This document shows positions 236 to 15,235 of a stretch of 19,943 nucleotides of DNA, one piece after another (position 1 is the stretch's first letter; each line of letters starts with the position of its first letter). Under the pieces are notes generated by a model that saw only the letters and a list, made by a program, of their open reading frames with translations, was not told where the DNA came from and did no database searches. Source of the stretch: an uncultured Lentisphaeria bacterium. GTDB lineage: Bacteria > Verrucomicrobiota > Lentisphaeria > JABSQK01 > CAJWLW01. Location: the NCBI GenBank assembly GCA_913042885.1, contig CAJWLW010000061.1, positions 1 through 19,943 on the forward strand, written 5' to 3'. The position numbers and the translations under genes were made by a program.

Positions 236-2257
236 ATGGATAAGAGCAACACGGTCATTGAAAGCCTCGGTGTTTACTTGCCTCCGAAGAGAGTCACGAG
301 CAAGGAAATTCTGCGTTCCTGTCGCAATACCGTTCTTTTCCCGCTGGAACGCCTCACCGGTATCCGCATTCGCCACATGGCCGGCGACACCGAGTTTTCC
401 ATTGACCTGGCCCGCCAGGCTATCGAAAAGTGTCTGGCCAAGTCGCAGTACAACGCTGAAGACATCGACCTGCTGATCTGCTGTAACATCTCACGGGTCG
501 ACGGACCGAACTTTCACCTGTCCTTCGAGCCGAGCACCTCGGTGCGGTTGAAGCGACAGATGGGTTTCGACAATGCCCTGGTCTTCGACATCTCCAACGC
601 CTGCGCCGGCATGTTCACCGCCGTCAACGTCGTCGATGGCTTTCTCAAATCAGGCTTGGCGCACCGCGCCATGATCGTCAGCGGCGAGTACATCACGCAC
701 CTGACGAAAACCGCACAGCAGGAGATCGATACCAAGGCAGATGCCCGCTTCCCCTGTCTTACCCTCGGCGACTCGGGTGTCGCCGTCATCCTCGAGCAGA
801 GCGAGAACGACCAGACCGGCTTCCACAACATCGACATGTTCACGCTCGGTGATTACAGCGACTACTGCATTGCCGGCCCGACCTCCAGTGAGTACGGCGG
901 CGCTATCATGATCACCGAATCAATCAAACTTCACGCCGTCGCCATCAAGGAGTCGGTTCTGCATATGGTCAGCGTGCTCAAAGGCTCGCGCTGGAAGTGG
1001 CAGGACATCCGCCACCTGATCATGCACCAGACGGCGCGTACCGCGATCGCCGAGACCTGCAAGCAGATCAACGATTTCTTCAAGAAGGAAGTGCTGTGCC
1101 GCAGCAAGATGGTGAACAACCTCGAAGAACGCGGCAACACATCCACGACAACACACTTTGTTGCGCTGTGGGATCAGATCCAGAGCAAGAAGATCAACAC
1201 TGGCGACAAAGTACTGTTCGCCGTGCAGGCTTCTGGCATCACGATCGGGACTGCCGCCTATACCCTCGATAATTTGCCCGACCGCATGCGCGGGGATATC
1301 GGCAAACCGGAAGCGACCGGTGCTCCGGCCATTGTCGGTAAGGCCATTGCCGCCCGTGAAGCTGAGGGGTCGCGTATCCGCATCGAGAGCATCGGCTCGA
1401 TTCCCGAGGGTATCGAAACCACGCGGGACGCTGTCGAGATGGTGCGCATTGCCGGCGAGGACTGCCTCGGCAAGTCCGTGTACTCCCGCGAACAGATCGA
1501 TCTGCTCATCCACGCCGGGGTCCATCGCAACGACTTCGTCGTCGAACCCGCCATTGCCGCCATGATCGCCGGCCGCCTGGGCATCAATGGCACCAAAGGC
1601 GAGGACAGCCGACACACCTTTGCATTTGATGTTTTCAATGGTGCCATCGGTTCGCTCAATGCCTGCCATACCGCTGTGTCGATGATCAAGGCCGGCAAGT
1701 TCCATACCGCCATGGTTGTCGCCTCGGAGATCGAAAACAATGCCGATACAATGCCCGACCGCCTGCTCGGAATCTGCGAAACCGGCTCGGCCATGATCAT
1801 CGACGAGGATGTCGAAGGGGACACCGGCTTTGGTGCCTTCCATTTCGATTACCACACCCATTACATCGATGCCTACTCGTCGCACGTCGGGCAGAATTCC
1901 GGCAGTAACTATCTGAGTTTCGACAAGGACCCGGAGATCGAGAACTACTACCTGCAGGCCATCCCTCGGGTCGTTGCCGAGCTGCTCAAGCGCGAGAACC
2001 TTAATTTTTCCCAGATCAAAGCCATCTTCCCGCCGCAGATCTCCAAAAACTTCATTGGCTGCCTGAGCCGACAGCTCAATGTCATCCACGACAAGTTCGT
2101 CGATATCGTTACGGACGGTAAGGATTTGTTTACATCGTCGATGGCTTGCGCCTTCGGCGCCGCGCGTGATAGCGCCCGTGTCAAGACCGGCGATGTCGGT
2201 CTGGTCATCAGCGTCGGTACCGGCATTCAGGTCGGTTGCGCCACCTATTATTTCTGA
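236..2257 (+). CDS. Double KAS III (FabH-like) protein, second half catalytically degenerate
   Basis: This 673-residue protein is about twice the length of a FabH-type beta-ketoacyl synthase III. The N-terminal half (about 6-365) has the thiolase-fold triad: Cys123 in a NACAG motif, His264 in MHQTA, and Asn301 in GNTST. The C-terminal half (about 380-673) starts again with a near-identical IESIG strand and aligns to the same fold. There, however, the Cys position is Ala470 (NGAIG), the His position appears to be Pro599 (FPPQI), and the Asn position is Lys629 or Asp630. The likely role is decarboxylative or non-decarboxylative acyl condensation by the first half, with the second acting as a structural or substrate-shaping partner. 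ATG 236 is chosen because GGAGAA (220-225) lies 10 bases upstream. An in-frame TTG at 200 and ATGs at 215 and 218 lack this. kdsB follows almost without gap. The substrate is unknown. Confidence 0.85.
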   Translation: MDKSNTVIESLGVYLPPKRVTSKEILRSCRNTVLFPLERLTGIRIRHMAGDTEFSIDLARQAIEKCLAKSQYNAEDIDLLICCNISRVDGPNFHLSFEPSTSVRLKRQMGFDNALVFDISNACAGMFTAVNVVDGFLKSGLAHRAMIVSGEYITHLTKTAQQEIDTKADARFPCLTLGDSGVAVILEQSENDQTGFHNIDMFTLGDYSDYCIAGPTSSEYGGAIMITESIKLHAVAIKESVLHMVSVLKGSRWKWQDIRHLIMHQTARTAIAETCKQINDFFKKEVLCRSKMVNNLEERGNTSTTTHFVALWDQIQSKKINTGDKVLFAVQASGITIGTAAYTLDNLPDRMRGDIGKPEATGAPAIVGKAIAAREAEGSRIRIESIGSIPEGIETTRDAVEMVRIAGEDCLGKSVYSREQIDLLIHAGVHRNDFVVEPAIAAMIAGRLGINGTKGEDSRHTFAFDVFNGAIGSLNACHTAVSMIKAGKFHTAMVVASEIENNADTMPDRLLGICETGSAMIIDEDVEGDTGFGAFHFDYHTHYIDAYSSHVGQNSGSNYLSFDKDPEIENYYLQAIPRVVAELLKRENLNFSQIKAIFPPQISKNFIGCLSRQLNVIHDKFVDIVTDGKDLFTSSMACAFGAARDSARVKTGDVGLVISVGTGIQVGCATYYF

Positions 2258-2259
2258 CC

Positions 2260-3009
2260 GTGAACGATTCGTCGCAACGCGTCGTCGCTGTCATCCCCGC
2301 TCGCTACGCCAGCACCCGATTTCCCGGTAAACCGCTTGTTCCGATTCTGCGGAAACCGATGATTGAGTGGGTCTACGAGCGCACCGCCGCTACCGCTGTC
2401 GATGAGGTTCTGGTCGCTACCGACGATGAACGCATCGCCGATTGCGTCGAACGGTTCGGCGGCCGCTGCGTCATGACCAGCCCCGATCACCCGACCGGTA
2501 CCGACCGCATTGCCGAGGTCGCCCGCAACCTCGACACGCATTGGATCCTCAATGTCCAGGGCGACGAGCCACTGATTCCCGCCGCCGTCCTTGACCAACT
2601 CATCGCACGCATGCGCGGTCAGGACCAGTCGGAGATGGGTACCGTCGCTGTGCCGATACAGTACGACGACCCGGAATTCACGGATCCGAATATCGTCAAA
2701 GTCGTCGTGGATGCCGCCGGCAATGCCATGTACTTCAGCCGCAGCAGTATTCCCTGCGATCGTGACGGCGGCGCCGACGTGCAGCCGCTGGCGCACTGGG
2801 GTATCTACATGTACACCTCCGATTTGCTGCAGCGCTTTGTCAAATGGCCGCAGGGACAACTGGAGCGCTGCGAGAGACTCGAACAGTTGCGTGCCATGGA
2901 AAACGGTGTACGTATCCAGGTGCTGGTCGGCAGCGGCCGCTGCCTCGGTGTCGATACCCCCGAAGACGTCGCCCGTGCCGAGGCGCTGCTGCAGACCGAG
3001 GAGAATTGA
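2260..3009 (+). CDS. kdsB: 3-deoxy-manno-octulosonate cytidylyltransferase (CMP-KDO synthetase)
   Basis: This cytoplasmic enzyme activates KDO with CTP to give CMP-KDO, the donor for the inner core of lipopolysaccharide. The 249-residue product has the family's usual length. It shows the N-terminal nucleotide loop IPARYASTRFPGKPL, then LVATDDERI, SPDHPTGTDR, the NVQGDEPLI metal/nucleotide motif, HWGIYMY, an LERCERLEQLR helix and GVDTPEDV near the end. GTG 2260 is taken as the start because it begins just after the upstream TGA (2255-2257), which suggests translational coupling, and gives the expected N-terminus. An in-frame TTG at 2236 lies inside the previous gene. No clear Shine-Dalgarno is seen. 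It heads a KDO/LPS-transport gene series. Confidence 0.95.
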   Translation: MNDSSQRVVAVIPARYASTRFPGKPLVPILRKPMIEWVYERTAATAVDEVLVATDDERIADCVERFGGRCVMTSPDHPTGTDRIAEVARNLDTHWILNVQGDEPLIPAAVLDQLIARMRGQDQSEMGTVAVPIQYDDPEFTDPNIVKVVVDAAGNAMYFSRSSIPCDRDGGADVQPLAHWGIYMYTSDLLQRFVKWPQGQLERCERLEQLRAMENGVRIQVLVGSGRCLGVDTPEDVARAEALLQTEEN

Positions 3010-3010
3010 A

Positions 3011-3463
3011 ATGACTCGAACGGTCAGAATCATCCTGCATCGCAATTCTGCCGGGGTCGTGCAGTTTTCGTCGGCATCAACGAACGCGGCGGTTTGTGCC
3101 GATGCGCCGTGGACCGTGCGCAATATCTGCCGAGACGGTTTCCAGGGGACATGCCTGTCCGGCTACACGCGCCGGATTTTTTCCGCCCGTAAGGCCGCTG
3201 TGTTCTACGACAACGACGCCGATGGTACCGGTTTGATGCAGAACTTCCGGCGGCAGACGACGGAACCGGATCTGGAGGTAGTCGAGCCGATCGCTTTTCA
3301 TCGGAAGCGCACGCGCGACCTTAAACCAATCTTTGCGCTGATCGCAGATGATGACGCCGATGCCACCTTCGTCGCCCGTCGGCAAGGCGGTTGCTATAGC
3401 AAGTCCTCCATGTGGTTGTCGCCCGCGACGGTCGATTCGCCGCGGCAGATCAGCAATTAACCA
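3011..3463 (+). CDS. Hypothetical protein, unrecognised, between kdsB and lptC
   Basis: An open frame of 150 codons starts at ATG 3011, one base after the kdsB stop. An AGGAG (2999-3003) lies 7 bases upstream, one of the best ribosome sites in the cluster. Third codon positions are GC-rich, as in neighbouring genes. The product is Arg-rich with several Cys, has no signal peptide or membrane segment, and shows an acidic DDDAD stretch near its end. I recognise no family. A competing ORF on the opposite strand (3077-3661) has no recognisable motifs and runs into lptC, so it is treated as a shadow. The composition is not clearly protein-like, so a decayed gene or intergenic remnant remains possible. 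The frame closes with TAA at about 3458-3460, so the feature edge is approximate. Confidence 0.45.
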
Positions 3464-3551
3464 ATTGAAGTAACCAAGGGAACTGTCTGCCGGGAAATGA
3501 CGTCGAATAGTGACTCGCATGACGATCACACAGTTCCCAGAAGCCCGATTT

Positions 3552-4001
3552 ATGACATCCAAATCACATCTGATTCTGCTGGCACTCGCTGCCTGGCTCT
3601 GCAGCTGCAACCTGTGGGCCGGCGCTACCGACGCATTTCCCGGCGGTAAGTACTCGGTCACCGACTTCAGGGTGCGCGATTACAAGATCGACGGTACCCT
3701 TGCCTGGTTGATCAACGGCGATCAGGCCGATGCCAGCGGCCGCTGGGTCATCGTGCAAGGTCTCAATGCCGAGTTGCATACGACCGACGGCCTTTTCCTC
3801 GTGATCTCCCCGCTCTGTCGATTCGACCGCCTGAGACAGACCGGAACCAGCGATGAAAATGTCCAGGTTCGCGGCCGCACAATGACGATCGACGGCACCG
3901 GCTTCGATCTCAACCTCGACAAGCAGCGTCTCTCCATTCGAAGTAATGTGGTTTGCCGATTCTATACCGCCGAATCCAATCTTCTGAACCGGCAAAAATG
4001 A
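3552..4001 (+). CDS. lptC: LPS export periplasmic protein LptC (YrbK-like)
   Basis: LptC is a bitopic inner-membrane protein that passes lipopolysaccharide from the LptB2FG transporter to LptA. From ATG 3552 the product is 149 residues: a short basic start, a hydrophobic segment (LILLALAAWL) and then a beta-rich region with the alternating pattern of the LptC/OstA jellyroll (for example VTDFRVRDYKIDG and VQVRGRTMTIDG). LCSC after the hydrophobic segment is a weak lipobox, so lipid anchoring is possible but unproven. In-frame GTG 3510 and ATG 3519 would add a polar stretch before the signal, so 3552 is preferred although its ribosome site is weak. The call relies heavily on the lptA and lptB genes directly downstream. 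It is shorter than E. coli LptC (191). Confidence 0.72.
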   Translation: MTSKSHLILLALAAWLCSCNLWAGATDAFPGGKYSVTDFRVRDYKIDGTLAWLINGDQADASGRWVIVQGLNAELHTTDGLFLVISPLCRFDRLRQTGTSDENVQVRGRTMTIDGTGFDLNLDKQRLSIRSNVVCRFYTAESNLLNRQK

Positions 4002-4059
4002 AACCAACACCTTGTGCCTGTACATTTACCCCTCCCGGTCCGTCGAAACCCGGAATAAA

Positions 4060-4959
4060 ATGAAATACCCCGGCCATCTCTGCCTTTTCCTGGCGCTGGC
4101 AACAGTTGTTTGCCAGTCCCAGGTCGCCGATGAAAAATTCGGTCCGCCGCCGATTGAAGTCCGATCGGAAACCATGGACTTCGATCTGCAGGCGCAGCGC
4201 TGCGATTATGCTGGCAATGTCGAGGTGACCGACGAGAAATTCACGCTGCGCGCCGATCGCGTCAGTGCCTTTCTCGACGATGACTCGCAAATCACCAACA
4301 TCGAGGCGGAAGGCAATGTCGTCATCCTGCAGGACAACGACAAGGAAGTAACCGGCGGCCGCGCCATTTACAATGCCATCGAGAATATCGCGACCCTCTA
4401 CGATGATCCAAAGCTGACTTTCGGCGAAAATTCCGCCGACGGCGCTACGCGGATCGTCTTCGATCGCAACAATAACCTGTTCAAAGCCATTGGCCGCACC
4501 ACCTGGACTGTCTATCATAGGGAAACCAGAGGCGAAGGCACCGCCGATCCCGTGGCTCCGGTCACGACGACAATTGTTGCCGACGACACCGACTTCGACA
4601 TGGCGGAGAAAATCTGCACCTTCATCGGTGATGTCCAGGTCAAGGACACACGCTTCGAACTCACCAACGAAACAACCGTGGCCCACATGGACGACGGATT
4701 CCAGGTCAAGCGCATCGTTTGTACCGGCAACGTCGTCATCAGCCTCGCCGAAAAGAAGGCCACCAGCGGTCGTGCAATCTACGACGTCGTAGACGACGAA
4801 GTCACCTTGACCGAGGAACCAGAAGTCTTTTTCGGCAAGAACCACGGCACCGGCGGCACGCTCGTTGTCTATCATCCGAAGACCGGCAAGTTCCACTCCA
4901 GAGACATGACCTGGAGCATCTACCGGTCGGCCGGCGACGATCGGTTTCTGGATCCGTAA
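4060..4959 (+). CDS. lptA: LptA/OstA-family LPS transport protein with two tandem OstA domains
   Basis: LptA forms the periplasmic bridge that carries lipopolysaccharide to the outer-membrane LptD/E complex. From ATG 4060 the 299-residue product begins with a signal peptide (hydrophobic core LCLFLALATVV, likely cleaved near SQVA). Two homologous OstA-like units follow at about 32-150 and 169-285. They share the order S/D-E/D-T-M/D-DFD, a GN/GD-V turn, an I-x-x-x-GNVVI strand, a T/S-GRAIY strand, a L-x-x-x-P strand and a closing TW-x-x-Y. Most LptA proteins have one such unit, so this looks like an internal duplication. TTG 4012 in frame is rejected because it places the signal peptide internally. 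The preceding gene is lptC, and the next start codon (lptB) lies 14 bases after the stop. Confidence 0.85.
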   Translation: MKYPGHLCLFLALATVVCQSQVADEKFGPPPIEVRSETMDFDLQAQRCDYAGNVEVTDEKFTLRADRVSAFLDDDSQITNIEAEGNVVILQDNDKEVTGGRAIYNAIENIATLYDDPKLTFGENSADGATRIVFDRNNNLFKAIGRTTWTVYHRETRGEGTADPVAPVTTTIVADDTDFDMAEKICTFIGDVQVKDTRFELTNETTVAHMDDGFQVKRIVCTGNVVISLAEKKATSGRAIYDVVDDEVTLTEEPEVFFGKNHGTGGTLVVYHPKTGKFHSRDMTWSIYRSAGDDRFLDP

Positions 4960-4973
4960 ACGGGGAGTGTGTG

Positions 4974-5702
4974 GTGTCTGAATTCCTTTTGGAAACGACC
5001 GGCTTGGTCAAGAGCTACCGCGGCAAGACGGTCGTCAGCGACGTCGATGTCAACGTACGCCCGGGTGAGATCGTTGGTTTGCTTGGCCCCAACGGTGCCG
5101 GCAAGACCACCTGTTTCTACATGATCATGGGCCTGGTGCCGGCCGACAGCGGCGCCGTCTATTTCGAGGGCGACGATATCTCCAGCCTGCCGATGTACGG
5201 CCGCGCCCGGCGCGGTATGGGCTATCTGGCGCAGGATCCATCGATTTTCCGCAAACTGACGGTCGAGGACAACATCATGATGATCCTCGAAACGCTCGAC
5301 ATCAGCCGCGAGGAGCGTCAGCATCGGCTCCAGGAGCTCCTGGAACGGCTCGATCTGCACGCTTTGGCCAAGCAGAAGGCGATCACCCTGAGCGGCGGCG
5401 AACGCCGCCGCCTCGAGATCACCAGGTCACTGGTCACCGAGCCCAGTTTCATGATGCTCGATGAACCGTTCAACGCCATCGATCCCATCGCCGTACATGA
5501 CGTCAAGCAGATGGTTTCCCACCTCAAGGAAATGGGGCTGGGCATTCTGATCACTGACCACAGTGTGCGCGACACGTTGTCAATCGTTGATCGCGCCTAT
5601 ATCATGTGCAATGGTGAAATTATTTGCGAGGGGGACAGCGAATTTCTGACCCACGACGAACAAGCGAAACGGGTTTATCTGGGCCCGGAATTTTCCTCCT
5701 GA
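4974..5702 (+). CDS. lptB: LPS export ABC transporter ATP-binding protein LptB
   Basis: LptB is the cytoplasmic ATPase that powers extraction of lipopolysaccharide from the inner membrane by LptFG. The 242-residue product has a Walker A GPNGAGKT (38-45), a Q-loop LAQDPSIF with Gln87, a signature LSGGERRR (139-146), a Walker B ending in Asp163-Glu164 (MLDEPFNAIDP), the switch His196 in ITDHSVRDTL, and the LptB-typical ending KRVYLG. Length equals E. coli LptB (241). GTG 4974 is chosen over GTG 4971 because GGAG (4964-4967) is then 6 bases away. Both differ from the longer open frame that reads back into lptA. The partner permease genes lptF and lptG are not in the window. Confidence 0.96.
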   Translation: MSEFLLETTGLVKSYRGKTVVSDVDVNVRPGEIVGLLGPNGAGKTTCFYMIMGLVPADSGAVYFEGDDISSLPMYGRARRGMGYLAQDPSIFRKLTVEDNIMMILETLDISREERQHRLQELLERLDLHALAKQKAITLSGGERRRLEITRSLVTEPSFMMLDEPFNAIDPIAVHDVKQMVSHLKEMGLGILITDHSVRDTLSIVDRAYIMCNGEIICEGDSEFLTHDEQAKRVYLGPEFSS

Positions 5703-11041: not shown

Positions 11042-12304
11042 ATGAGCCGGATTGCAATCGTAATGCCGCAGATGGGCCAGAGCGTTGCCGAAGGCACGAT
11101 CGTGCGTTGGGAGAAAAATCAGGGCGAATCCGTCCAACTCGACGAGGTCGTGCTCGAAGTGGAAACCGACAAGACAACAGTCGAAGTCGAGAGTCCGAGT
11201 GACGGTACTCTGGTGTCTTGCCTCAAGGAGGCCGGTGAGATCGCTGCTGCCGGCGAAGTTATTGCTTTTCTCGAAGTCGAAGATGGCGCCGAGGAGGCCG
11301 AAGGCGGCCGCCCCCATGCCGCTGCTGTCCACGATCAGGTCACGGTTACCGCTTACAATTTCAATGTCGATCCCAATGCCGATATGCTGCAAGGGCGCTC
11401 GTCCCTGTCGCCGTCGGTCTGCCGCCTGGTACTGGAACACGACATCACGCTGTCCGAACTCGAGGCCATCGCTGGCACCGGTTCCAGCGGCCGCGTCACC
11501 AAGCATGACTTGCTGAACTATCTCGCACACCGCCGCGAACCCAATGCCTCCGGACGCCAAAATCGACCGATCTACATCGCCGACAAAGACGAAAGCGCAC
11601 CGATGTCGAGCGTCCGACGCACGATTGCCGATCATATGGTGCAGTCGATCCGTACCAGCGCCCACGTCACCATGGTGCACGAAGTCGATATGCACGAAGT
11701 CGTCGCGTTGCGGAAGCAGTACAAAGAGGCCTTCATCGATGAGTTCGGCTGCAAATTCTCCTACACCGCCGTCATGTGCTACGCGCTCTCACGAGTACTC
11801 ACGAAATTCCCCGACTTCAACGCTGCGGTATCCGGCACCGATATCGTCTGGCACAAGCACATCAATATCGGATTCGCTGTCGCGGTCAAGAAACAGAGCC
11901 TGGTCGTACCTGTCATTCAGGATTGCGACCAGTTCGATTTTCCGCAGATCAGTGTGCGACTCGACACGCTTATGATTCAGGCGCGCCAGGGCAAACTGCG
12001 GCACGAGGACTTTGAGCATGGAACGTTCACCATCTCGAACTTCGGCGCCTTCGGCAGCCTCATCGGCACCCCAATCATCAACCAGCCGGAAGTCGCAATC
12101 CTCGGCATGGGAGCAATTTTCAAAGACCCCGTCGTGCGCAACAACGAGATTGTCATCCGCGACCGCATGTACCTCAGCCTGTCCTTCGATCACCGGGTCA
12201 TCGACGGCGCGCTCGGAGGCCAGTTTCTCAAGGCCATTCAGGATACGACCGAATCCTTCGACGCCGCCGACCTCGGCCTCAGCGGTCTGCGGGTATCGAC
12301 TTGA
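11042..12304 (+). CDS. pdhC: Dihydrolipoamide acyltransferase, E2 component of 2-oxoacid dehydrogenase complex
   Basis: E2 forms the core of the complex and transfers the acyl group from lipoyl-lysine to CoA. The 420-residue protein has one lipoyl domain (1-80) with the lipoylation site Lys44 in ETDKTT, an Ala/Glu-rich linker, a peripheral-subunit-binding domain near 122-160 (SPSVCRLV ... GSSGRVTKHDLL), and a catalytic domain from about 190 with SFDHRVIDGA containing the active-site His and Asp. AGAGGA just before ATG 11042 is a good ribosome site. E3 is not encoded next to it. The end of the gene overlaps the stop of the opposing yfhO-like gene by 26 bases. Confidence 0.94.
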   Translation: MSRIAIVMPQMGQSVAEGTIVRWEKNQGESVQLDEVVLEVETDKTTVEVESPSDGTLVSCLKEAGEIAAAGEVIAFLEVEDGAEEAEGGRPHAAAVHDQVTVTAYNFNVDPNADMLQGRSSLSPSVCRLVLEHDITLSELEAIAGTGSSGRVTKHDLLNYLAHRREPNASGRQNRPIYIADKDESAPMSSVRRTIADHMVQSIRTSAHVTMVHEVDMHEVVALRKQYKEAFIDEFGCKFSYTAVMCYALSRVLTKFPDFNAAVSGTDIVWHKHINIGFAVAVKKQSLVVPVIQDCDQFDFPQISVRLDTLMIQARQGKLRHEDFEHGTFTISNFGAFGSLIGTPIINQPEVAILGMGAIFKDPVVRNNEIVIRDRMYLSLSFDHRVIDGALGGQFLKAIQDTTESFDAADLGLSGLRVST

Positions 12305-14420
12305 GCCGCGGCCATGTCATCGCCAGCAATGCCAGCAGCACGATCAGCCCCGCCAGGCTCAAAAATTTGCCATAAGCCCAGCCCGGCGGGTCGTAGAGGA
12401 ACTCGACCCGATGTTCCCCGGGCGGCACGATGACACAGCGTACGATGCCGTAAGCTTTCAGAATTGGCACCACCTCGCCGTCGATGGTGCATACCCAGTC
12501 GGGATCCCAGCGGTCGGAGACCACCAGAATCTGGCGGTCCCTGCCACGAACCGTGACCGTGGCGGCTGATGGGGCGTCCTCGAGCACCTCCAACGTACCT
12601 TTCTCCACGGCCAGCTCCGCTTCGTTGCCTGGCAGCAGCACGACGTCGGCGAAATTGATACCCGCAAACCCGGCTTTCGGTGATTCTTCGAGTGCCGCAG
12701 TGCGCCGGACCAGTCGGAATCGGGGCACGACGTTTGTCACCTGCCAGGTCGTGCCCTGCATCTTCACCTGTTGTACACCCAGCAGCGCCATCGTGCTGTT
12801 GTCCGTGGCGTCATACGTGCGGCTCGGCTCGATTGCCGCGTATGCCGTCATGTTGTACTCACCTCGCAGCACACCATCGTTAAAACGCTTGATCACCCGA
12901 TACCGGCGGTCGACGCCGGCGCGGTTGGCCACATCCGCGTTGATCGCCGCAATGTCCCGACGTGGCATGGCGTGCAGCATTTGGTAATAACCGTTGACCC
13001 CGACGTCGATCAGGCAGCAGGCAGCGAAAGCCGTTGTGCGCCAGGACCTGCCCAGACAGGACCACCAGCCAATCAACACGATCGCGACGCTGATCGCCGC
13101 CGATCGCCACAGCGCCCCCCCGGTATGCAGCTCGCCTAACCACGCCGGTCCGCAGGCCGGCGCCGCCAGCGCCATCAGATGCACCAATACCACGACCAAC
13201 ATCAGCGCCAGCCATGCGCCGTTAACGATTTTGCGATTCGGCCGCCGTCGCATCCAGTCGAGGCCGGCGAGGGCCAGTCCCAGCCACAACAACTGCCATA
13301 TCGCGATGTAGCGCGACGGGCATCGAAAGCTCTGGATCAGAGGCACATGCGCCGTCAGGCTGTTAATCCCGCCGTATCGCCCGCACATGAACAGACCGAC
13401 GACTACGATTAAAAGCAATGCCAGACGAATCAGCCGTCGCTGCGATGCCGGCAGCTCACCCGTCCGGAGCACACCCAACAGCGCCAGGCCGACGACACCC
13501 AGCCCTGGGTAGATCGGGAATTCGATGCGACTCGCACCGCTGATCGCGTCCGGTACCGTACCACCCCTGAAAAGGTAGGGACCCGGAAGCTGCAGGAAAT
13601 TCGCCGGGTGCAGAGAAAAATCGTTGACGTACGCCGCCGTCAGGTCAGCACGTTCCGTGAACGGCAGGTATAGCAGGGTCGGCAGCCATTGCGCGGCGCT
13701 GAGCAGAAACATCAATCCTACTGCAATCGCCAGCATCCCAAGGGCTTGCCGGCACTGCCGGGACCAGGCGAGATACAGTGCCACACTGCCCCAGACCACA
13801 CCGGAGGCGAACATCGCCGGCGGATGTCCTGTCAGCATCTGCGAAGCGAGAAGTACAGCGATCCACGCGGCCAGGAAGAGACGGGTGCGGTTCGTCCCGG
13901 CATCGAATAATTTCAGAATAAGCCATAGCAGCCAGGGCAGATGTGCGAACACCGCAATCATATTGGCGTGTGGGAAATGGGTGATCATGTAAATCGAGAA
14001 TGCAAACCCGGCAGCTGCAAACCAGGCCGGCACAGCCTCGAATCTCAGGTATCGCAGCAGCAGAAGAGCGCCTGCAAATGCACCTAAATAAGAAATCAAC
14101 AGCTCGAATTGCAGTCCCAGCCACAGCGGCATGAACCTGTACAAAAAGAAGTGCACCGGGTGCACGGCACCGAACTGCCCTTCCGCCAGTGCCGGAAATC
14201 CACAGGCGATCCGGGGTTCCCACAATGGCGCCTCGCCTGCTTTTAGTGCGTCCATGTAGAAGGCACGCAGCGGCAGATGCAGCGCGCCAAGGTCAGAGCC
14301 CGTGTAGATCTGCCCGTTTGCCAGCGGCCAGAAAAACAGGCACAGAAGCAGTGCCGTCACCAGTGCCAGCAGCCACGGAGTTGCTTGCCGGAAGTTGTCC
14401 GAGGGGTAGGAAGTTGACAT
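12279..14420 (-). CDS. YfhO-family multi-pass membrane protein (probable lipid-linked glycosyltransferase)
   Basis: The 713-residue protein begins with a hydrophobic helix (LLALVTALLLCLFFWP). The YfhO-typical periplasmic loop follows: GSDLGALHLPLRAFY, then PLWEPRIACGFPALAEGQ and HPVHFFLY. Many membrane spans run to about residue 480, then an extracytoplasmic beta-rich domain (about 490-675), and a final membrane helix (LSLAGLIVLLALLAM) before a basic tail. This matches the bacterial YfhO/GT-C-like class, some of which glycosylate wall or lipid carriers. The donor and acceptor cannot be read from sequence. The start at 14420 overlaps a rightward TTGACA box. No clear minus-strand promoter or Shine-Dalgarno was found. 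The stop lies inside the E2 gene on the other strand. Confidence 0.82.
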   Translation of the reverse strand: MSTSYPSDNFRQATPWLLALVTALLLCLFFWPLANGQIYTGSDLGALHLPLRAFYMDALKAGEAPLWEPRIACGFPALAEGQFGAVHPVHFFLYRFMPLWLGLQFELLISYLGAFAGALLLLRYLRFEAVPAWFAAAGFAFSIYMITHFPHANMIAVFAHLPWLLWLILKLFDAGTNRTRLFLAAWIAVLLASQMLTGHPPAMFASGVVWGSVALYLAWSRQCRQALGMLAIAVGLMFLLSAAQWLPTLLYLPFTERADLTAAYVNDFSLHPANFLQLPGPYLFRGGTVPDAISGASRIEFPIYPGLGVVGLALLGVLRTGELPASQRRLIRLALLLIVVVGLFMCGRYGGINSLTAHVPLIQSFRCPSRYIAIWQLLWLGLALAGLDWMRRRPNRKIVNGAWLALMLVVVLVHLMALAAPACGPAWLGELHTGGALWRSAAISVAIVLIGWWSCLGRSWRTTAFAACCLIDVGVNGYYQMLHAMPRRDIAAINADVANRAGVDRRYRVIKRFNDGVLRGEYNMTAYAAIEPSRTYDATDNSTMALLGVQQVKMQGTTWQVTNVVPRFRLVRRTAALEESPKAGFAGINFADVVLLPGNEAELAVEKGTLEVLEDAPSAATVTVRGRDRQILVVSDRWDPDWVCTIDGEVVPILKAYGIVRCVIVPPGEHRVEFLYDPPGWAYGKFLSLAGLIVLLALLAMTWPRLKSIPADR

Positions 14421-14629: not shown

Positions 14630-15235
14630 ATGGGAAAGCTGAGCATAGAAGACGTTCAGGCCATACGCGATGGCATTCGGGATGGTGAGACCTATCAGAC
14701 TCTCGCCGATCGATTCGATGTCTCGCGTAATGCGATCTGGAACATCAAGCATAATAAGACGCATAAAGGTATCGGACCCGATGTCCAGCGTAAGCGCGTG
14801 ACCCGGAAGCTGTCGCGGCAGAAGAAGATGGCGATCTGCATCAGCCTCCGAATGGGGGAGTCGCGTGAGAGTATTGCCCGGCGTCTGAACGTGTCGCTCA
14901 GTACGATCTCCGCTGTCAAGAAGGAAAGCGGCGATGACACATACGGCGTCGATGTCAGCGATATTACCAATCGCAAGCTCAGCGAACAGGACGCCATCAA
15001 CATTCGTTACCGCCTGCATAACGGCGAAAAAGCCGTTGACCTCGCGAATGAGTATGACGTGTCGAAGGCTCACATCAGCGACATCAAACACTACAAATGC
15101 TGGCCGAACGCCGGCCAACCTGGTGCCGTTGCCGATTTGAATCTACCTGGCTTTGATATCTCTGAAAGCGAACTGAACCAGAACGTCGCCGCAGAAAGAT
15201 TAGAGTTCTGGGAGCGTCTTCGCACCGGGCCCTGA
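14630..15235 (+). CDS. DNA-binding protein made of three tandem helix-turn-helix repeats
   Basis: The 201-residue protein consists of three copies of one unit: residues 3-44, 60-98 and 116-158. Each begins KLS, has a conserved GE (19-20, 76-77, 132-133) and a VS at the HTH turn (31-32, 88-89, 144-145), and ends in I-x-x-I/V-K. The period is 56-57 residues. Copies 1 and 3 end IKHNK and IKHYK, with Trp158 after the last. The unit resembles HTH domains of resolvase tails and phage DNA-binding or homing-endonuclease proteins (L-A-x-x-F/Y-x-V-S pattern). No catalytic domain is present, so it probably binds a long or repeated DNA site. The linker after repeat 1 is strongly basic (RKRVTRK). A perfect AAGGAGG fixes the start. 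The exact family is unknown. Confidence 0.8.
   Translation: MGKLSIEDVQAIRDGIRDGETYQTLADRFDVSRNAIWNIKHNKTHKGIGPDVQRKRVTRKLSRQKKMAICISLRMGESRESIARRLNVSLSTISAVKKESGDDTYGVDVSDITNRKLSEQDAINIRYRLHNGEKAVDLANEYDVSKAHISDIKHYKCWPNAGQPGAVADLNLPGFDISESELNQNVAAERLEFWERLRTGP

Follow-up and report, generated by a model that had tools for sequence, protein, structure and literature searches.

A one-chain KAS III didomain in a Lentisphaeria bacterium, a candidate counterpart of the LstA-LstB and OleA synthases

Two KAS III domains in one gene

We analyzed a 19,943-nucleotide stretch of DNA from an uncultured Lentisphaeria bacterium (contig CAJWLW010000061.1; hereafter, the window), in which a gene at positions 236-2257 encodes a protein made of two ketoacyl synthase III (KAS III) domains (hereafter, the didomain). 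All features of the gene lie on the forward strand. Its translation gives 673 residues and no internal stops; the open frame begins with a TTG at position 200, and the ATG at 236 is a sensible start. A preliminary description of this DNA had read the gene as two KAS III halves within one frame, and this is borne out by the uninterrupted translation and by the Pfam families ACP_syn_III and ACP_syn_III_C, each of which matches two stretches of the protein (E up to 1).

Domain 1 (residues 1-350, positions 236-1285) is assigned as an active KAS III from profile and PDB homology and from trees. Domain 2 (residues 380-673, positions 1373-2254) is assigned, from homology and trees, as an LstB-like KAS III fold that lacks the catalytic Cys. 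The linker between them (residues 351-379, positions 1286-1372) is a region of variable alignment, with low model confidence at residues 356-374. Aligned with each other, the two domains reach 24.6% over 305 columns (E 7e-17).

Alignments confirm the earlier reading that domain 1 retains Cys123 (codon at 602-604), the nucleophile by homology, together with His264 (1025-1027) and Asn301 (1136-1138). In domain 2, the Cys column is occupied by Ala470 (1643-1645), the His column by Pro600 (2033-2035), within a conserved PPQIS motif, and the Asn column by Asp630 (2123-2125). The losses first proposed thus stand for Ala470 and Asp630 but shift by one residue at the His position, where Pro599 had been named, as His264-Gln265 aligns with Pro600-Gln601. 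Both domains carry a Glu-Pro (“EP”) motif, with Glu98 (527-529) in domain 1 and Glu437 (1544-1546) in domain 2, the latter our proposed base for the domain 1 site.

Fused and split relatives

A full-length search gave 1144 matches among 7995 scored candidates, and a second search, seeded with a relative fused to a nonribosomal peptide synthetase (NRPS), gave 1027; the best 120 of each, pooled with the query, make 223 distinct didomain proteins, two of them truncated. In the first set (query plus 120 homologues), Cys123 and His264 are present in 121 of 121 proteins and Asn301 in 120, and the Cys column of domain 2 never holds a Cys. Across the pool, Glu98, Cys123, His264 and Glu437 are kept in 223 of 223 and Asn301 in 222; the Cys column of domain 2 holds Ala (123), Ser (53), Gly (35), Pro (8), Glu (2) or Thr (2), again never Cys, and the other two columns hold Pro (221 of 223, at Pro600) and Asp (217 of 223, at Asp630). 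When fragments were included in a third search, a Cys appeared at the domain 2 column in one of the 72 proteins spanning it (P0250). This search, made with domain 2 only, gave 84 matches, many from contigs shorter than 2 kb, so that stand-alone genes are indistinguishable from fragments among them. The pooled proteins uphold the proposal that an active KAS III is naturally fused to a pseudo KAS III in which the loss of the Cys is fixed.

That the gene might be an artifact of assembly or annotation, or a decaying duplicate, deserves virtually no credence. A second domain without its triad, and a nearest relative that is a metagenome-assembled genome (MAG), would fit such an origin, but these results already refute it: the layout is common to the 223 pooled proteins, an orthologue of 96% DNA identity stands in a separate record, and both halves appear to be under purifying selection, with ratios of nonsynonymous to synonymous substitution rates (dN/dS) between the two genes of 0.16 for domain 1 and 0.31 for domain 2. 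The didomain is rare in the phylum, where a scan found it in one of 387 genomes (E 1e-80). A scan of genome contigs found one locus; in viral contigs, 11 stretches matched and none was confirmed.

Many relatives carry biosynthetic modules ahead of the didomain. An NRPS condensation domain occurs in 91 of the 120 rows of the second search (hand count), whose organisms include Dictyobacter, Ktedonobacter, Ktedonosporobacter, Thermosporothrix and Aminicenantes. The didomain follows condensation-adenylation-carrier NRPS modules in Ktedonobacteria and a condensation-carrier protein in an Aminicenantes genome. Other N-terminal partners are a ketoreductase (KR) plus a carrier (P0026), the end of what we read as an acyl-ligase-like sequence plus a carrier (P0071), or a carrier alone (P0023, P0056, P0084), some of these records being partial. 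More than 90 residues precede the didomain in 104 of the 223 proteins, a share that the choice of the second seed has biased. C-terminal extensions of more than 30 residues do not occur in the pool.

In plasmids, the best places found by our scan were split genes, with identity of at most 31.9%. Both domains occur as adjacent separate genes on Rhodococcus and Streptomyces plasmids, of which we inspected four pairs (L007-L010). Relatives encoding two separate active enzymes, which the preliminary description had named as evidence against a pseudo domain, were not seen among these four pairs: every second member lacks a Cys at the catalytic column and has one a residue later, in the motif NG[AST]CG. 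By annotation, genes of the OleC/LstC and OleD/LstD types, an NRPS gene and a formyltransferase gene come after the pair on both Streptomyces plasmids, which is a lipstatin-like layout. For NBC_00536, the OleC model gives 559.6 bits (cut-off 478) and the OleD model 222.6, below its cut-off of 580. The active member in NBC_00536 has Cys128, His271 and Asn305, the same numbers that PMC12141560 gives for the catalytic residues of LstA; there, Glu60 of LstB is described as essential. Glu437 of the didomain aligns with the EP Glu, residue 59, of all four split LstB homologues. The Rhodococcus pairs have surroundings of their own, which include universal-stress and CBS genes: the WAY2 plasmid pair is flanked by two wax ester synthase genes (L007, 10407-16517), and in DK17 some 8 kb separate the pair (L008, 11923-13885) from acsA and pyruvate dehydrogenase genes that come after it.

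We built trees from 12 or 27 of the 223 didomains, eight of 20 OleA proteins retrieved from genomes of the phylum, the four split pairs, FabH of E. coli and a single additional KAS III (two others, L066 and L067, were left out by a motif filter). In the tree with 12 didomains, the four LstB-like proteins form a group with domain 2 (support 100/99.5), and the four LstA-like proteins one with domain 1, at a weak 71/81. Internal duplication as the origin of the fusion was rejected, with domains 1 and 2 as one clade giving p = 0.03 in the approximately unbiased test. From these groupings and this value, the likeliest history appears to be the fusion of an older LstA/LstB-like pair, with rooting and long branches leaving some doubt.

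These relationships bear on a parallel drawn in the preliminary description, that with PqsB-PqsC, in which an active KAS III likewise stands beside an inactive partner. Domain 2 would then be purely structural, shaping the pocket of domain 1 for another acyl donor and acceptor. The likeness of an active and an inactive partner holds, but we consider a PqsB-like role unlikely. PqsB and PqsC are two chains; no clear sequence link to domain 2 was seen, in that the 35 matches listed for it (E up to 10) include no chain of the name PqsB, though a more distant link may exist; domain 2 groups with LstB-like proteins, in a tree that holds no PqsB; Glu437 is invariant and its likely LstB counterpart essential; and OleC and OleD co-occur with the didomain, as described below. 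LstA-LstB and OleA are the closer parallels. Because domain 2 is LstB-like and retains a Glu that is probably catalytic, it likely takes part in catalysis in addition to any shaping role.

A candidate condensation of two acyl chains

OleA and the LstA-LstB pair condense two acyl chains without decarboxylation, OleA acting as a dimer of identical, active subunits. We propose, at a probability of roughly 70%, that the didomain is a one-chain synthase of the LstA-LstB/OleA type, which would carry out a nondecarboxylative (head-to-head) Claisen condensation of two acyl thioesters. Like LstA-LstB of Streptomyces toxytricini, which belongs to lipstatin synthesis, it joins a Cys-His-Asn KAS III to a Cys-less KAS III that keeps a Glu. 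Unlike that pair, it is one chain instead of two polypeptides, it has NRPS-fused relatives, and its gene is not beside lstC or lstD homologues (none was recognized among the window's frames, not all of which were scanned). With OleA it shares the Cys-His-Asn set, the fold, the presence of OleC and OleD in didomain genomes and a Glu at the position of Glu117, to which Glu437 corresponds in our alignment (our numbering); the EP motif is present in all 20 of the OleA proteins retrieved from this phylum. Its second half lacks the triad, in contrast to the identical active subunits of OleA.

In the mechanism that we envisage, domains 1 and 2 would pack as an intramolecular pseudo-dimer and a first acyl chain would be loaded onto Cys123. 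Glu437 would cross the interface, as Glu117 does from the other OleA subunit, and take the alpha proton from the second acyl thioester; the resulting carbanion would attack acyl-Cys123, aided by His264 and Asn301, to give a 2-alkyl-3-ketoacid. Domain 2 has thus probably kept the job of supplying the active site of domain 1 with an acidic residue. For the Lentisphaeria relatives, we envisage that OleD would then reduce the 2-alkyl-3-ketoacid and OleC close a beta-lactone, the pathway leading to a beta-lactone or, with OleB, to a long-chain olefin.

As a test of this pathway, we searched 197 genomes of the class to which the Lentisphaeria MAG carrying the close orthologue belongs. At E up to 1e-80, the didomain is present in three (G001, G388 and G389). 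OleA matches at E up to 1e-60 occur in 72 genomes, 70 of them above the cut-off, and at E up to 1e-70 there are OleC relatives in 57 and OleD in 54. OleA and OleC occur together in 47 genomes, OleA without OleC in 25 and OleC without OleA in 10. Among the 125 genomes lacking OleA, OleC and OleD occur together in seven, which include all three didomain genomes (p 1.1e-4); given OleC and OleD, OleA is lacking in three of three didomain genomes (p 0.002). Both probabilities overstate independence, as the three are related to one another and the test was prompted by G001. Since it was in G001 that OleC was initially noticed, the fresh tests are G388 and G389 only (two of two, about 0.002). The OleC of G001 scores 623.5 bits, above the NF006754 cut-off of 478; its OleD scores best with the OleD model, yet at 373 bits, below the cut-off of 580. 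OleC adjoins OleD in G388 and G389. In an earlier sample of 115 genomes from the phylum, 20 had OleA (E up to 1e-90); OleC was present in 22, namely the 20 OleA genomes plus G001 and G109, the latter having other KAS III proteins and no OleA above the cut-off. This distribution suggests that the didomain takes the place of OleA in Lentisphaeria, a non-orthologous replacement. As a separate observation, the 25 class genomes with an OleA match and no OleC relative (E 1e-70) may be incomplete MAGs or put OleA to a different use.

Several points weigh against the proposed synthase, among them the relatedness of the three genomes and the small number of fresh tests. With 25 of 72 OleA genomes lacking OleC at the cut-off, the profile is noisy, and none of the 54 OleD matches passes the 580-bit cut-off. 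All three didomain genomes are MAGs and may be incomplete. In each of them, OleC and OleD lie on contigs other than that of the didomain gene, and the OleD frames of G388 and G389 contain one in-frame TAA each within the match (L117, 4197-5171; L118, 1879-2877), through decay, error or some other cause. Among the split relatives, the two Rhodococcus pairs have no OleC or OleD genes alongside, the equation of LstB Glu60 with the EP Glu relies on homologues whose numbering is off by one residue, and the grouping of domain 1 with LstA is weak. Glu98 is as invariant as Glu437 yet would face the dead pocket, for which the proposal offers no clear reason. Our literature search found no activity reported for any didomain member.

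Similarity measures also point away from OleA. A PDB sequence search with domain 1 gave a best FabH match at 1.7e-21 and OleA at 4.6e-8; Foldseek placed FabH chains at the top and OleA from rank 28; and a general KAS III model scored the didomain at 202 bits versus 177 for the OleA-type model NF006720, whose cut-off is 285. Domain 1 thus scores closer to FabH than to OleA, as would be expected if the didomain started fatty acid synthesis as a housekeeping replacement for a missing FabH. In G001, PF08545 matches the didomain plus two other frames, which we interpret as genes for a thiolase and an HMG-CoA synthase, with no separate FabH found, and loose NF006720 matches come from the didomain alone (G047 and G109 show further KAS III proteins). 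The lack of a separate FabH in G001 leaves room for such a role, but we regard it as very unlikely: the score against the FabH model TIGR00747 is below its cut-off (180.5 of 292.1 bits), Glu-Pro stands where E. coli FabH has Phe87-Pro, the didomain is rare in the phylum, NRPS-fused relatives exist, and the G001 assembly may be incomplete.

A last alternative concerns the motifs PPQIS, DxFTSS and EIENN of domain 2, which are strongly conserved among didomain proteins, beyond what a scaffold would need. Through them, domain 2 might have a chemistry or binding role of its own, such as handling the coenzyme A (CoA) or carrier arm or hydrolyzing the product. This seems doubtful to us, as a known catalytic set is not recognized and the full motifs are missing from the four split LstB homologues (some have PP or AP), all of which do have the EP Glu. 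The incomplete sharing of these motifs also tempers the synthase proposal, in that the role of domain 2 may go beyond providing a glutamate.

A broader and more tentative extension, to which we give somewhat less than even odds, is that the didomain serves as a release module of megasynthases. Placed behind NRPS modules, or behind carriers of polyketide synthase (PKS) or acyl-ligase-like type, it would release the chain through a nondecarboxylative Claisen reaction that links it to another acyl thioester, and the free-standing form would have replaced OleA in Lentisphaeria. For the NRPS-fused relatives this is read from architecture: the attached carrier protein would supply the first chain, so that the didomain would both join and release chains. 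CorB and MxnB, stand-alone KAS III proteins of alpha-pyrone pathways, similarly join two carrier-bound chains; unlike the didomain, they are single-domain proteins without a fused dead partner. CorB and a chain named as a ketosynthase (4v2p) are weak matches to an LstA homologue.

In a literature search that was not exhaustive, we recognized no description of a fused LstA-LstB or of a KAS III/pseudo-KAS III terminus of an NRPS. The review PMC12141560 mentions naturally occurring fusion chimeras, citing a 2019 LstAB paper (doi 10.1021/jacs.8b12843), which may therefore already note fusions; the review also states that LstA and LstB were not soluble apart. A single chain in place of that hard-to-handle pair would make the contribution of each domain separately mutable, and would illustrate how a dead enzyme domain may persist largely for one residue acting in trans. 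The proposal further predicts an unusual NRPS chain ending in Ktedonobacteria, useful in genome mining for beta-lactones and joined lipopeptides.

Neighboring genes

Two bases past the stop of the didomain gene, a kdsB-type cytidylyltransferase gene begins with a GTG at 2260 on the forward strand. It opens a run (2260-5702, forward) that continues with lptC and lptA and ends in a gene for an ABC ATPase, which its position suggests is lptB. From kdsB, the preliminary description had suggested an envelope product, a suggestion that the comparison leaves unsupported: the didomain-kdsB neighborhood is found in the window and at the close orthologue (L001) only, and the two other didomain loci of the class have other neighbors. 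We accordingly rejected the kdsB and lpt genes as evidence of an envelope function. Farther along the window lie a gene for a YfhO-like membrane protein (12279-14420, reverse strand) and one for a 201-residue protein with several helix-turn-helix matches (14630-15235, forward strand).
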